Below, one piece after another: positions 15,868 through 31,430 of a stretch of DNA of 59,064 nucleotides. Position numbers and translations under genes: made by a program. The DNA comes from Syntrophomonadaceae bacterium (GTDB taxonomy: Bacteria; Bacillota; Dethiobacteria; DTU022): contig PWYU01000021.1 in assembly GCA_003567725.1 (NCBI GenBank), forward strand, positions 1-59,064, read 5' to 3'. Numbering within the stretch: the stretch's first letter is position 1; the number at the start of each line of letters is the position of its first letter. The notes under the pieces were generated by a model that made no database searches, was not told the DNA's origin, and was given only the letters and a program-made list of their open reading frames with translations.

Positions 15868-17304
15868 CTACTTGATATTCTTAAACTTTGATCTTAAGCT
15901 TTTTTCCATATCTTCGCTGAAACCAAGCGTTTTGTGTTCTTTTAAGATGCGCTTTACTTCTTCGTTAGCTCTGGTATATGAATCCTTGGATCCTTCAGCT
16001 TCCCAAACACTGCGCTGGCTCCGATCGGCATGAGTGGGGATATAGAATTCTTTGCGGACATTTTCAAATGTGTGCTTATGGTCCAGGAAATGCCCCCCCG
16101 GTCCTACTTCAGCGATAACATCCCTGGCGATCGTATTTTCGTTTGTTTCCACACCTTCTACGGCTCTCAGGGCCATCCCTACAGAATCGTTATCGATAAC
16201 CATTTTTTCATAAGATAAAGTGGTGCAAAACTCTATGATGCCGAAAGCATCGTGAATGTAGTTGCAACCTGAAAGTGCTACAATCATAGCCGTATTTGCG
16301 CTTTCGTATCCTGCCTGGGCATCGACTGTTTTCGAATCAGACATGCCTCCGGTTCCGTAAATAGGCACTTTGTAGTACTGCGCCATTTGAGCACAACCGA
16401 CATTAATCAAGGCTGATTCTATACAGCCCGCCAGATAGGTACCGCTTTGCATATTTATTGTACTGGCAACACTGCCGTAAATGGTAGGAGTCCCTTTATT
16501 GACCAGCTGGGCCAAAACCAGTCCGGCCAATGATTCTGCATTATTGATGGTGACTGTTCCGGCCATTGTAACAGGAGAAGTTGCTCCTGCCAAAGGCTCT
16601 GCCGGAGTTGTAACCGGAAGGCCGCGCTTGGCTATTTCAATCAAAAAGTCACTATAGGTGTTTTCCATCTTCAATGGGCTCATGATCAGGGTAATAAAAG
16701 AAACAAAGGGGCGATCCTTCAATTTTTCTTTTCCGCCGGCTATTTCTTCAGCCATTTCAATTACCGACATCATCCCGTCCATGGTGTAAATACCACCCAT
16801 TACATGCTTTGATGTGTTGGCGAAAGAGTGAAAAAAGCGATTGACGTCTTCATCTTCAATAGAAACATCGCCTGCATAACAGTTAATCAGGAAAAATGCG
16901 ACATTGTCCAGTGCATCAGTCATCTTTGCGTACCCGGCAACATCTCTTACTTCGGTTGGCCTTTTTTTGCCTGTATCGATATCAAGGGTGTTTAAGGCCG
17001 TGCCGCCTGTGCCCAGGTAAACGTTTGTTCCTTCTAAAACCAGGTCATTTTTCTCTTCCCGTCCGCAGAGCACAACTTTTGACGGAGCAGAATCAACTGC
17101 ATCTTCAAGCATACCTCTGGGGATTTTGACTATCTTGTTTTCTTTGTCTGTTGTTGCCCCATTGTCGGCAAAGATTTGCATTGCCCTTTTATTGTGGACC
17201 TGGATACCTACATTCTCAAGCAGGTAGACAGAAGCTTCATGAATCTCTTTCATATCACTTTCACTAAAAACCTTGTAGCTTCCACCTTTGTACTGTTTAA
17301 ACAT
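15868..17304 (-). CDS. trimethylamine methyltransferase (MttB) family, non-pyrrolysine
   Basis: 478 residues covering the whole MttB-like TIM-barrel length in one uninterrupted frame. It keeps SHVMGG-like and GTGGMSDSKTVDAQAGYES segments. Members move a methyl group from a quaternary or tertiary amine to a corrinoid protein. Versions without pyrrolysine act on glycine betaine, proline betaine, carnitine or gamma-butyrobetaine. No in-frame amber codon occurs inside the gene. It stops with TAG, and readthrough would add only eight residues. AAAGGAG lies at about 17312-17318 before the ATG. No corrinoid protein gene lies next to it, so its partner must be elsewhere. Confidence 0.88.
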   Translation of the reverse strand: MFKQYKGGSYKVFSESDMKEIHEASVYLLENVGIQVHNKRAMQIFADNGATTDKENKIVKIPRGMLEDAVDSAPSKVVLCGREEKNDLVLEGTNVYLGTGGTALNTLDIDTGKKRPTEVRDVAGYAKMTDALDNVAFFLINCYAGDVSIEDEDVNRFFHSFANTSKHVMGGIYTMDGMMSVIEMAEEIAGGKEKLKDRPFVSFITLIMSPLKMENTYSDFLIEIAKRGLPVTTPAEPLAGATSPVTMAGTVTINNAESLAGLVLAQLVNKGTPTIYGSVASTINMQSGTYLAGCIESALINVGCAQMAQYYKVPIYGTGGMSDSKTVDAQAGYESANTAMIVALSGCNYIHDAFGIIEFCTTLSYEKMVIDNDSVGMALRAVEGVETNENTIARDVIAEVGPGGHFLDHKHTFENVRKEFYIPTHADRSQRSVWEAEGSKDSYTRANEEVKRILKEHKTLGFSEDMEKSLRSKFKNIK

Positions 17305-25056: not shown

Positions 25057-25241
25057 GATCATATTCATAGTATAATTTTACTGGCAGTTCCGTTGCATGA
25101 GGAAAATGGAATTATAAGCATTTAACTGGCTTGAGGTTTCTTGACTGTTCAAGACATTCATAATTCTGAGACTCGCCTGACTATGCCCTGTTAAATTTTA
25201 GCCCACTGCTGGTTAGTGCTGGCACCTTTTTGGAGGCGGCG

Positions 25242-27965
25242 ATGACAGCGCAAAAAGACCATTCTTATATTCACCCGGCAAAGCTTCTGGAGGTTTCATT
25301 TGATGCCACCAAAGATGGAATCTGTGTGCTCGATCCCGATTTTAATATTCTGCGGATTAACCGGGCCATGAGAGAGTGGTATAAGAATAAGCACTTCATA
25401 AAGGGCGGCAAATGCTTTCAGGTCTTTATGAACAGAGATGAACCCTGCGAAAAATGTCCTTCTTTTACTGCTCTAAAAACCGGTAAACCGGCGGTAGAAA
25501 AAATTCCTTTCAGAGTTAACAGTGAACAATGTCGGTGGATTGAGCTTTACGCCTACCCTCTTCAGAATGAAGCAGGCCGGATCGGCGGGGTAGTGGAATT
25601 TGTGCGAGATATTACTGAAGAACTAACCATCAGGCAGGCCCTGGAAGATAGCGAGAAGAAATACCGGGCCCTCGTTGAGCAATCCATAGAGATGGTTTAC
25701 CTGCATGAGCTGGATGGCTCCATTGCAGAAGTTAATCAGGTTGCCGTGGAATGGACCGGTTATTCCCGGGAAGAACTGGACCGGATGAACGTGTTTGACC
25801 TGCACCCTGATTTGCATCCCACTGTGGATATTAAAGAAGACATAATCAGGCAGTGGCAAAACTGGGAACCGCAGAGTGGTGCTCATAATATTGAAACGGT
25901 GCACCGGCGTAAAGACGGTACTGTCATTCCGGTCAGCGTCAATAGCGGTAAAGTGCTGGTTGGAGAAAAAGCGATGATCCTGGCCCTGGTCAGAGACCGG
26001 AGCGAACAGTTAAAGGCTGAAGAAACCCTGCAGTACCAGTACCGTTTTGAAAGTATGATCGCCGATATATCTTCAACCTTTGTCAACGCTCCTGCAGAGG
26101 ATATAGACCGGGCCATTGATCATGCCCTGGCTTTAAGCGGAAAATTTTTTGACGCCGATCGCAGTTATCTCTGCCGTTTTAGTGAAGATGGATTTTACAT
26201 GGATAATACCCATGAGTGGTGCGCCCAAGGTATTGATTCAATGAAAGAAAGAAATCAGGGCTTTGCCCTTGATAAAGCGCCCTGGTGGGCGGAGCAGCTG
26301 CGCCGGGGGGATTATGTTTATGTGCCCGATGTAGATGTTGTGCCGCCTGAAGCAGAAAAAGATAAGCAAGAATTTAAAACCGAAAAGACCAAATCATTCT
26401 TAAGCATTCCAATGGTTAAAGATGACAAAGTGATCGGTTTGTACGGCTTCAAGGTAGTCAAAGAGAAAAGAACTCTTTCTGAACAGCAGATTAGCTTGCT
26501 TAAAGTTGTGGCTGATTTAATTACAGGAGCCCTGGTTAAACATGAATCCGAGGAAGCGCTGAAGGAATCAGAGGAGCGTTACCGTGAGATCCTGGCCACC
26601 ATGGAAGAGGGTTATTATGAAGCTGATTTGGCAGGGAATATTACCTACTGTAATGACGCTGCCTGCTGCCTTTTTGGTTACGTGCCGGGCGAGTTGATTG
26701 GGATGAGCTATAAAAAGCTTTACAAAGATCCCGAAAAAGCCTATAAAACATTTTTCCAGGTATTTAATACCGGCAAACCTGAACGGGGGTTGATCCTGGA
26801 AATGTATCGCAGTGACGGAACGCTCGGGTACGGGGAACTCTCTATAACCCTGATCAAGGATAAGGAAGGTTACGTGACCGGTTTTAAGGGTATTGGCAGG
26901 GATGTTACTGATCGGATCCAGTATGAACAACGCCTGGAATACTTAAGCCTCTATGATCAACTGACAGATATCTATAACCGCGCCTACTTCGAAGCGGAGC
27001 TTAAACGCCTGAACGATGGGCGGCATTATCCGGTAACCATTATTTCTGCTGATTTGGATGGACTGAAGCTGGTAAACGATACTATGGGCCATGATGCTGG
27101 AGACAGGCTGCTCAACAACTGTGCTTGCGTGATCAAGAATACTTTGCGTTCATCAGATGTTCTGGCCCGGGTGGGCGGGGACGAATTCTCAGCCATCTTG
27201 ATCAAAACCGGCCGGGAAACGGGAGAAAAAATCCTGAGCCGGATTCGGGAAAACGTGGAAGAGTATAACCGGGATAACGAAGAACTGCCACTGGGCGTTT
27301 CTTTGGGGGTGGCAACAACTGAAGGTCCGGGAGTATCGCTGAAGAAACTCTACAAGCGGGCTGATGATATGATGTACCGTGACAAGCTCTACAGCAGCAA
27401 GAGCAGCCGGAGCAAAATCGTCCAGAGCCTGTTGGCGGCACTGGCCGAAAGAGACTACATTACAGAGGGTCATGCCCGGCGCCTGGAGAATTTATGCCGT
27501 GCGGTGGGCGAAAAGATTAACTTATCCTCGCACCAGCTGGCAGACTTAGCCCTGCTGGCCCAGGTACATGACCTGGGCAAAGTAGGGATACCTGATCAGA
27601 TCCTATTCAAGCCGGGGCCTCTAAGTGAGGAAGAATGGGAAATCATGCGCGGTCACCCTGAAAAGGGTTACAGGATTGCAACCTCCTCACCTGATCTGGC
27701 GGCAGTAGCCGATCTGATTTTAAAACACCATGAGCGCTGGGATGGAAAAGGCTATCCCCTGGGGCTTAGCTCCATTTCAATCCCGGTGGAATGCCGGATC
27801 CTGTCTGTTGTCGATGCCTTTGATGCCATGACTAACGAACGCCCTTACAACAAGACAATGACCCGGGAAGAAGCAATACAGGAGCTAAAGGATAACGCCG
27901 GAAACCAGTTCGATCCCGAATTGGTCCAGGTCTTTATTGCGTTGCTGGGGGAAGATCTAGAATGA
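25242..27965 (+). CDS. PAS-PAS-GAF-PAS-GGDEF-HD-GYP c-di-GMP enzyme
   Basis: 907 residues: PAS1 (about 10-125, with a C-x2-C near CEKC), PAS2 (about 135-250), GAF (about 265-430), PAS3 (about 440-565), GGDEF (about 570-725) and HD-GYP (about 735-905). The cyclase motif GGDEF (residue 645) and its inhibitory RxxD site (RSSD, 636) are intact. So are the phosphodiesterase HD (776-777) and HHExxDGxGYP (829) motifs. Both synthesis and hydrolysis of c-di-GMP are therefore possible. No membrane segment is seen, so it senses cytosolic signals. ATG at 25242 with GGAGG five bases upstream is preferred to TTG at 25230. Two c-di-GMP riboswitches lie 1.6 kb downstream. Confidence 0.93.
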   Translation: MTAQKDHSYIHPAKLLEVSFDATKDGICVLDPDFNILRINRAMREWYKNKHFIKGGKCFQVFMNRDEPCEKCPSFTALKTGKPAVEKIPFRVNSEQCRWIELYAYPLQNEAGRIGGVVEFVRDITEELTIRQALEDSEKKYRALVEQSIEMVYLHELDGSIAEVNQVAVEWTGYSREELDRMNVFDLHPDLHPTVDIKEDIIRQWQNWEPQSGAHNIETVHRRKDGTVIPVSVNSGKVLVGEKAMILALVRDRSEQLKAEETLQYQYRFESMIADISSTFVNAPAEDIDRAIDHALALSGKFFDADRSYLCRFSEDGFYMDNTHEWCAQGIDSMKERNQGFALDKAPWWAEQLRRGDYVYVPDVDVVPPEAEKDKQEFKTEKTKSFLSIPMVKDDKVIGLYGFKVVKEKRTLSEQQISLLKVVADLITGALVKHESEEALKESEERYREILATMEEGYYEADLAGNITYCNDAACCLFGYVPGELIGMSYKKLYKDPEKAYKTFFQVFNTGKPERGLILEMYRSDGTLGYGELSITLIKDKEGYVTGFKGIGRDVTDRIQYEQRLEYLSLYDQLTDIYNRAYFEAELKRLNDGRHYPVTIISADLDGLKLVNDTMGHDAGDRLLNNCACVIKNTLRSSDVLARVGGDEFSAILIKTGRETGEKILSRIRENVEEYNRDNEELPLGVSLGVATTEGPGVSLKKLYKRADDMMYRDKLYSSKSSRSKIVQSLLAALAERDYITEGHARRLENLCRAVGEKINLSSHQLADLALLAQVHDLGKVGIPDQILFKPGPLSEEEWEIMRGHPEKGYRIATSSPDLAAVADLILKHHERWDGKGYPLGLSSISIPVECRILSVVDAFDAMTNERPYNKTMTREEAIQELKDNAGNQFDPELVQVFIALLGEDLE

Positions 27966-29505: not shown

Positions 29506-29534
29506 TTGACAGCCCCGGTTAATTAGTGTATAGT
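29506..29534 (+). promoter_or_regulatory. strong sigma-A promoter for the riboswitch-transglutaminase unit
   Basis: Perfect TTGACA at 29506-29511, an ideal 17-base spacer and TATAGT at 29529-29534. Transcription would begin just before the first c-di-GMP aptamer. Confidence 0.75.
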
Positions 29535-29547
29535 TAAACCAGAAGTT

Positions 29548-29668
29548 CTGTAAAAGCCGGAACGATAATGGCAAACCTGCCGAAAGGCAGCGACGCAAAG
29601 CTAAAGGGCCTAAAGCTCTAAAAGGAGCAAAGGTAGCCTGGCCACCGAAACGGGTTTTTTATTTACAG
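29548..29668 (+). promoter_or_regulatory. c-di-GMP-I (GEMM-I) riboswitch, first of two
   Basis: The core from 29570 shows the GEMM-I landmarks in order: GGCAAACC, a CTGCCGAAAGGCAG hairpin with GAAA tetraloop, GACGCAAAGC, GGGCCTAAAGC, GGTAGCCTGGCCACCG. Closing arms CTGTAAA (29548-29554) and TTTACAG (29662-29668) are complementary. A T-run follows the core (29655-29660) but no strong terminator stem, so this aptamer may act with the second one. Confidence 0.9.
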
Positions 29669-29837
29669 CAAGAAATAAAATAATATTTGCTGGTCGTTTA
29701 GAATGTGAAGCTCGCTTGCGGGCATCATAAATAAACCTGACCGACAAAGGCAAACCTGCCGAAAGGCAGCGACGCAAAGCTAAAGGGCCTAAAGCTCTAA
29801 AAAGAGCAAAGGTAGCCTGGCCACCGAAACGGGTTTT
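29570..29837 (+). repeat. tandem duplication of an 89-base riboswitch core
   Basis: Segments 29570-29658 and 29749-29837 are identical except for one base (AAAAGGAGC versus AAAAAGAGC), a repeat distance of 179 bases. The intervening and flanking sequences differ. Confidence 0.9.
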
Positions 29838-29858
29838 AATTGTTTCACTTTGTCGGTC
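29739..29858 (+). promoter_or_regulatory. c-di-GMP-I (GEMM-I) riboswitch, second of two
   Basis: Carries the same GEMM-I core as the first copy (29749-29837). It is enclosed by a perfect 11-base pairing, GACCGACAAAG (29739-29749) with CTTTGTCGGTC (29848-29858). The last three bases of that helix are shared with the left arm of the terminator at 29856, so the closing helix and the terminator compete. Confidence 0.9.
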
Positions 29859-29879
29859 CCTCTGAAGGAGGGACTTTTT
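29856..29879 (+). terminator. riboswitch terminator that contains the ribosome-binding site
   Basis: GTCCCTC (29856-29862) pairs with GAGGGAC (29868-29874), five-base loop, followed by TTTTT. The right arm includes GGAGGGA, the ribosome-binding site of the ATG at 29881, so folding would block both elongation and initiation. Confidence 0.8.
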
Positions 29880-29880
29880 G

Positions 29881-31101
29881 ATGAAAAAGATAAGATTACT
29901 AAGGAGCGCAGCTATCTGCCTGGTAGTTGCAGTGGTATTGGCGGCAGGACTATTCCTGTTTACAGGCGAAGAGGCCGTATTTGTGAACAGCAAAGTGGAG
30001 GCTGATCTTAACGGCCATAGTGGAGCACTAAATTTTGAGGCAGCCAGTGAAGCCTCAGCGGAAACAGCTGAGACTGCACAAGAACAGATAAAAGCAGAAG
30101 GTGAAAGTGAAACAGAAGAACCTGCAGTCGTCAGTGGAGATGAAGAAGAAGGTTCAAGTGACGAAGAAGAAAAGGAAGAGCAGGCGCCTGAGGAAAAAGC
30201 GGATCAAGAGGAAAATGAACAAACAGATTTAGCAAAACCAGATCAAGAAGAAGATAAACAGGCAGCTGAAGAAACTTCAAATCAAACAGAGGAAATTGAA
30301 AACTCTAAAGAGCAGAATCTATCAGATGAAATCCCTGTCATACAAACCCAGGGTTTAGAAGCTGAAGCCGAACAGAAAGAACCCGAAGCTGAGACTGAAG
30401 CGGAAGTAACTGTAGAAGCCGATCAAACTGCAGTAGAACCTGCACCCGTGGTACAGGTATCATATTCCTGGGGTGGAGCAAGGAACTTTACCTTCAGAAC
30501 GGAAGTAACCCTTACCAATAATGGCAGCAGCACTTCAGAAAATGTCAGGGTTTCAGTGCCTCTGCTGGAAAACCGTTCACCATACCAGACCACCACTTTA
30601 AGGTCGGTAAACTACAATGTGGTATCTACCTCTGGTCGGGTAAGCACATTTAACCTGGGTAATCTTGCCCCCGGCGAAACTAAGACCATCGTTGCTGATT
30701 TTGATGTGGCGCTGCGCACGGTTTCCCTCAACTCAAGCAATGAAACAATAGAAAAAGCACGCCAGGCTTTTGAGCAATATAAAGGTAGCGTCAACTGCCG
30801 CACCCTGGCCCTGGGCTTTATCAGTAAAAGCCGTGAGCTGGGCATAGAAGCAAGAGAAGTAATTGGCTATGCCCGTCCCGAGCACGGACCGATGACCGCC
30901 GGTTCTCTGGCCGGCGCACGCCACAGCTGGGCTGAGTTCTATGTTGACGGCCTGGGCTGGGTCCCGGTTGATTTAACTTTTAAGTATTTTGGTGAGTTTC
31001 CCCACCACTCGCATGTAGTGGAAAGTTACAGCGACGAATCAATTCAGGTTAATTTTAACGGTGGAAACTTAAGCGCAACCTGGAGCAATGCAATTTACTA
31101 A
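29881..31101 (+). CDS. exported transglutaminase-like protein with acidic stalk
   Basis: 406 residues. A signal peptide or membrane anchor (about 5-30) is followed by a Glu/Gln/Ala-rich low-complexity stalk (about 45-185). Next comes a beta-sandwich segment (about 190-285) with LTNNGSSTSENVRVSVP and NLAPGETKTI, as in DUF11-like domains. A transglutaminase core closes the protein. The catalytic triad is visible: Cys in SVNCRTLALG, His in ARHSWAEFYV and Asp in WVPVDLTF. It could crosslink or cleave surface proteins. Its start lies six bases after the riboswitch terminator, so c-di-GMP should control it. ATG at 29881 is preferred to TTG at 29878. Confidence 0.85.
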   Translation: MKKIRLLRSAAICLVVAVVLAAGLFLFTGEEAVFVNSKVEADLNGHSGALNFEAASEASAETAETAQEQIKAEGESETEEPAVVSGDEEEGSSDEEEKEEQAPEEKADQEENEQTDLAKPDQEEDKQAAEETSNQTEEIENSKEQNLSDEIPVIQTQGLEAEAEQKEPEAETEAEVTVEADQTAVEPAPVVQVSYSWGGARNFTFRTEVTLTNNGSSTSENVRVSVPLLENRSPYQTTTLRSVNYNVVSTSGRVSTFNLGNLAPGETKTIVADFDVALRTVSLNSSNETIEKARQAFEQYKGSVNCRTLALGFISKSRELGIEAREVIGYARPEHGPMTAGSLAGARHSWAEFYVDGLGWVPVDLTFKYFGEFPHHSHVVESYSDESIQVNFNGGNLSATWSNAIY

Positions 31102-31189: not shown

Positions 31190-31252
31190 TTTTTGGATGA
31201 GCATGGACAAGCGATATCTTTTGTGCTACCATTAGTAAAATTAAATAAACGC

Positions 31253-31430
31253 ATTGAGGTGCCTTTAAAAGGCGAAGAGGGAAACCGGTGCAAATCCGGT
31301 GCGATCCCGTCACTGTAAGCAGGAGCTAACCCCACGATTCCACTGGCAAAAAGCTGGGAAGGAGGGGAAGGCGATGATTGTAAGCCAGGAGACCTGCCTG
31401 AATGTCGCTACGTTCCCCTTCGAGTGAAAG
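31253..31430 (+). promoter_or_regulatory. cobalamin riboswitch
   Basis: Contains GAGGTGCC, GAGGGAA, the GGTGCAAATCCGGTGCGATCCC region, GTCACTGTAAGC and the B12 box AAGCCAGGAGACCTGCC (31382-31398) in the canonical order. It sits at the head of the porphyrin/corrin gene cluster, so adenosylcobalamin should repress that transcript. Confidence 0.95.

Follow-up and report, generated by a model that had tools for sequence, protein, structure and literature searches.

Our analysis of the window, i.e., the whole stretch of 59,064 nucleotides from a Syntrophomonadaceae bacterium, is best explained by an old, homogenised tandem of two c-di-GMP-I aptamers with one visible expression platform, acting as an OFF switch driven by its second copy in front of a gene for an exported transglutaminase-like enzyme, a reading that we consider moderately probable. 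Both copies lie on the forward strand, at 29560–29649 and 29739–29828, and match Rfam RF01051 (c-di-GMP-I, GEMM-I; gathering score 35) with 74.9 bits (E 6.7e-13) and 74.1 bits (E 1.1e-12), respectively, each covering model positions 1–87 of 87, that is, the whole model in sequence and structure. By this family match, the two copies are c-di-GMP-I aptamers, as an earlier note had recognized from the letters alone, and should bind c-di-GMP. The 89-nt direct repeat (29570–29658 and 29749–29837) contains a single mismatch (29624 G vs 29803 A), exactly as that note had counted, and the cores agree at 79 of 80 positions. The one strong promoter that it placed before both copies is found as a sigma-70-type TTGACA-17-TATAGT sequence (29506–29534, forward strand; 11 of 12 consensus bases), and the leader comparison showed TTGACA/TATAxT-like boxes upstream of most tandem leaders. 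Furthermore, the leader is more stably folded than its own shuffles (z −3.66). The c-di-GMP signal is very likely present in the organism, judging from the 24 GGDEF matches in its genome (2.39 Mb in 127 contigs, with 11 c-di-GMP-I matches), one of these GGDEF matches being in a gene two genes upstream of the riboswitch (25230–27965, forward strand) for a PAS/GAF protein with GGDEF and HD-GYP domains.

The downstream gene (29881–31101, forward strand) starts at ATG 29881 or TTG 29878, and its product belongs to the transglutaminase-like superfamily, with a PF01841 (Transglut_core) match at E 2.3e-13 and with Cys306, His348 and Asp364 unchanged across 16 homologues, so that the exported target with an intact Cys-His-Asp triad proposed in the earlier note is confirmed. 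The AlphaFold2 model consists of an N-terminal helix (residues 3–26) and a low-confidence, disordered acidic stretch (28–183), then a beta domain and the transglutaminase-like catalytic domain. A search by sequence found no relative among solved structures, and the match is by fold only, the closest being 3isr, a putative cysteine protease (E 8e-7), followed weakly by TgpA. Note that a short motif ending in VEA (residues ~38–43) is conserved after the N-terminal helix amid unconserved surroundings. Just 3′ of the gene, before siroheme/heme genes, lies a Cobalamin riboswitch (122 bits; 31240–31415, forward strand), which L014 and L017 have in the same position. Elsewhere in the window, an MttB-like methyltransferase gene (15868–17304, reverse strand) matches PYLIS_3, a pyrrolysine insertion family, but has a normal sense codon at the UAG position of the model and no in-frame stop.

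The expression platform is a hairpin, GGTCCCTCTGAAGGAGGGACT (29855–29875, forward strand), which is terminator-like, is followed by U's up to 29879, and sequesters in its 3′ arm the Shine-Dalgarno sequence AGGAGGG (29866–29872), 8 nt before the ATG; a hairpin with the Shine-Dalgarno sequence directly 5′ of the start codon is conserved in 27 leaders. The earlier note had reported a single terminator after both aptamers, and the window indeed shows one terminator-like hairpin there and none between the copies; what it had not described is the Shine-Dalgarno sequence inside the hairpin, and a fully matching rearranging strand on copy 2 only. In L024, L028, L032 and the paralogous L002, the hairpin is kept and the U tract is absent; burial of the Shine-Dalgarno sequence is therefore the shared feature, to which termination has been added. 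Some distant homologues have, in addition, a distinct canonical terminator upstream of Xb; as an example, L036, L037 and L039 carry one inserted between P1 and Xb, whose loop region GCCUGGC could pair with the aptamer sequence GCCAGGC.

Two alternative pairings connect this hairpin to copy 2. On the forward strand, the P1 stem joins AACCTG (29734–29739) to CGGGTT (29830–29835), with pairs that vary on both sides among 27 leaders, and the switching strand Xa, GACCGACAAAG (29739–29749), which is conserved in 33 leaders and extends into the ligand-binding core of copy 2, can pair with Xb, CTTTGTCGGTC (29848–29858), whose final four nucleotides form the hairpin foot. Pairing between GACCGACAAAG and CUUUGUCGGUC was found in 335 of 363 cells of the 33 leaders. 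In the 27-leader alignment, P1 and Xa:Xb cross each other and show both-sided changes at 3 and 2 pairs, respectively, and 91.5% of the cells of the whole structure are paired versus 27–50% after sliding; the covariation of Xa:Xb is limited by its high conservation (permutation P 0.035). As read from this alignment, P1 and Xa:Xb are thus two conserved and mutually exclusive helices. The foot matters for the hairpin, the energy of which is −13.5 kcal/mol as a whole versus −4.0 kcal/mol without it.

These exclusive helices suggest how the gene may be controlled. When c-di-GMP is absent, Xa of copy 2 would pair with Xb and block P1, and this would remove GGUC from the hairpin foot and leave a weak stem no longer joined to the U tract, past which transcription and ribosome entry would continue. 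When c-di-GMP is present, copy 2 would fold with P1 and set Xb free, and the full hairpin would both terminate transcription and bury the Shine-Dalgarno sequence. Hence, c-di-GMP most likely strengthens the hairpin (OFF), mainly via copy 2. The modelled ensembles, which are equilibrium estimates of secondary structure that exclude ligand and tertiary energy, are consistent with this direction: Xa holds GGUC at a probability of ~0.5–0.98 in 10 of 17 tandem leaders without ligand, and never does so in the 17 leaders when aptamer 2 is forced, while in the window itself the modelled value is 0.14 in the unconstrained ensemble and 0.87 with aptamer 1 folded. The opposite direction, in which binding of c-di-GMP opens the hairpin and switches the gene ON, has a precedent in the c-di-GMP-I tandem of B. 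thuringiensis (PMC4759541); here it appears rather unlikely, since the hairpin stays intact in the models with aptamer 2 forced and a strand able to pair with the hairpin arm while the aptamer is folded was not found. Note that the Shine-Dalgarno sequence remains largely base-paired in all modelled states (accessibility 0.0–0.3), and thus the proposed OFF switch would have to be kinetic or need ribosomes that open the weak stem.

The two copies differ in their relation to this platform. The switching strand of copy 1, GAACGATAATGG (Xa1; 29560–29571, forward strand), forms 9 of 11 pairs with Xb versus 11 of 11 for copy 2, with pairing energies of −5.9 and −16.8 kcal/mol, respectively, and copy 1 is the worse match to Xb in 13 of the 17 tandem leaders, the number of pairs being equal for both copies in L015, L024, L028 and L032. 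Judged by base pairing, the visible link to the gene-controlling hairpin is thus made by copy 2 only, as the fully matching strand is found only there. When the aptamers are forced in the ensemble models, the formation of aptamer 2 costs more than that of aptamer 1 in every one of the 17 leaders. Copy 1, an easily formed aptamer whose strand has no fully matching partner of its own, would probably make the response more sensitive or supply one more step of pausing or termination. We tentatively propose a more specific form of this arrangement, in which the two homogenised aptamers share one platform, the downstream copy alone being wired to it through a strand spared from homogenisation and the upstream copy being an unwired helper that forms more easily. 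As to the sharper or logic-like response that the earlier note had mentioned for tandem aptamers, the models yielded no consistent thermodynamic cooperativity of the two copies, whose modelled coupling (−2.0 to +3.0 kcal/mol, in an equilibrium model without tertiary contacts) varies in sign.

A different reading would make the locus an ordinary pseudo-cooperative tandem of two complete and independent riboswitches, in which the platform of copy 1 has gone unrecognised, e.g., P1 and a U-rich tract that pause or terminate transcription with ligand. We give this reading appreciable weight while not favoring it. Indeed, in published c-di-GMP-I tandems each aptamer has a platform of its own, L028 carries a canonical terminator 3′ of copy 1, and a U-rich tract follows the copy-1 P1 in all 17 tandem leaders, against a background of 0.058 in the remaining spacer. 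However, the spacer of the window (29660–29733, forward strand) and those of the other tandem leaders contain no recognisable conventional terminator in 16 of 17 cases, and the P1 of the window itself consumes most of the U's. Likewise, the combination of P1 and U tract was rejected as a speciality of copy 1, since it also occurs in copy 2 (14 of 17 leaders).

The preferred reading of an old tandem relies on the comparison with relatives. When 60 related genomes were searched at the protein level, 35 proved to carry the gene, ~20 of them with a strong match, and further relatives came from a scan of named genomes (MAGs with Syntrophomonadaceae or Bacillota in their titles). All of the 20 best homologues are preceded by one or more c-di-GMP-I-type aptamers, as are several distant homologues of the order. 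The comparison of copy number in related genomes, which the earlier note had suggested, gave 16 tandem and 10 single leaders among 26 placed on the protein tree of related Bacillota; since at least six changes are required, copy number is labile. Over 17 tandem leaders, the mean core distance within one leader is 0.119, compared with 0.231 between leaders at the same position and 0.230 at different positions (permutation P 5e-5, the permutation ignoring tree structure). The cores are identical within L015 and within L032, and position-specific core differences are retained in the close pair L014/L017. In contrast to the cores, the switching strands keep their identity by position, as the distance between leaders is 0.037 for the copy-2 Xa, versus 0.28 between the copy-1 Xa and the copy-2 Xa, and all single leaders have the copy-2 form. 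It should be noticed that in L014, L016 and L028 the two copies differ in their best match, which is c-di-GMP-I for one and c-di-GMP-I-GGC for the other, a difference that might reflect mixed ligand specificity.

The cores being closer within than between leaders and the tandem being old, their near-identity points to homogenisation, by gene conversion or by repeated unequal recombination, which are indistinguishable here. The earlier note had offered recent duplication or gene conversion, and the second fits the core distances. A recent duplication within the lineage, with no special function, would agree with the 79 of 80 identical core positions, but it is contradicted by the relatives and was rejected as highly improbable: the tandem is common across the family (16 of 26 homologous leaders), and the diverged strand of copy 1, GAACGATAATGG, occurs in more than one genus and in a glucosaminidase leader of the same genome. 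A literature search found no relevant work on concerted evolution of riboswitches.

This glucosaminidase leader constitutes a second target of the same RNA module. A covariance model built from the copy-2 module gave its top scores to transglutaminase-like leaders, and the module also lies upstream of a gene for an exported glucosaminidase, whose linker is acidic or rich in proline, in the own genome as well as in G001, G002, G006, G007 and G010; G005 has such a leader by sequence likeness, with the frame cut off. The Pfam assignment of the glucosaminidase covers the protein of the own genome and that of L069, and in both the leader is a tandem with the diverged copy-1 strand. Both the transglutaminase-like enzyme and the exported glucosaminidase that shares its module would be made at low c-di-GMP, and the former may remodel the cell surface. 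Other c-di-GMP-I aptamers of the own genome precede genes for products that look, by eye, actin/ParM-like (L004, G000:C116:2440-2530) and like an HD-domain protein (L007), and further ones precede genes for acidic-tail (L003), RCC1-repeat (L008), sensory dCache/HAMP (L010) and O-antigen ligase-like (L011) proteins.

LapG and PPEP-1/Zmp1 are known examples of c-di-GMP-controlled exported hydrolases that act on surface proteins, and the predicted enzyme would resemble them in this respect. LapG is also transglutaminase-like, a likeness at the superfamily level, and its control is post-translational, unlike the leader RNA proposed here. Altogether, the locus may tie two exported surface enzymes of a little-studied family of bacteria to c-di-GMP, and it offers a case of concerted evolution within a riboswitch leader from which the switching strand is exempt. 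Moreover, the related species that have either a tandem or a single leader before this gene, together with the paralogous leader, form a natural series for learning what a second identical aptamer adds.

The locus belongs to a known kind, i.e., tandem c-di-GMP-I before COG1305, to which our study adds anatomy and evolution. Indeed, COG1305 in Bacillota is already listed as an enriched target of tandem c-di-GMP-I (PMC12452182, Table 2), and the output is thus not unusual, contrary to what the earlier note had supposed; beyond that work, a literature search found nothing relevant that connects tandem c-di-GMP riboswitches to transglutaminase-like genes of Firmicutes. Riboswitch class, doublet, gene group and phylum are the same in both cases; however, PMC12452182 counts arrangements with complete sensor and regulatory domains, whereas here a platform is recognisable at copy 2 only and the cores evolve in concert. 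More generally, c-di-GMP-I doublets (347) and triplets (12) exceed those of every other riboswitch class (PMC9481103). The Bc3-5 triple tandem of Bacillus thuringiensis (PMC4759541) similarly places c-di-GMP-I aptamers before cell-surface protein genes, but has a terminator per aptamer and acts as a transcriptional ON switch, in contrast to the single hairpin with an embedded Shine-Dalgarno sequence and the predicted OFF direction of our locus. Finally, the tandem glycine riboswitch (PMC9481103, Table 1) likewise combines a pair of homologous aptamers with a single visible platform, and differs in ligand and in fold; as for cooperative contacts between aptamers, the modelled coupling at our locus is of inconsistent sign.
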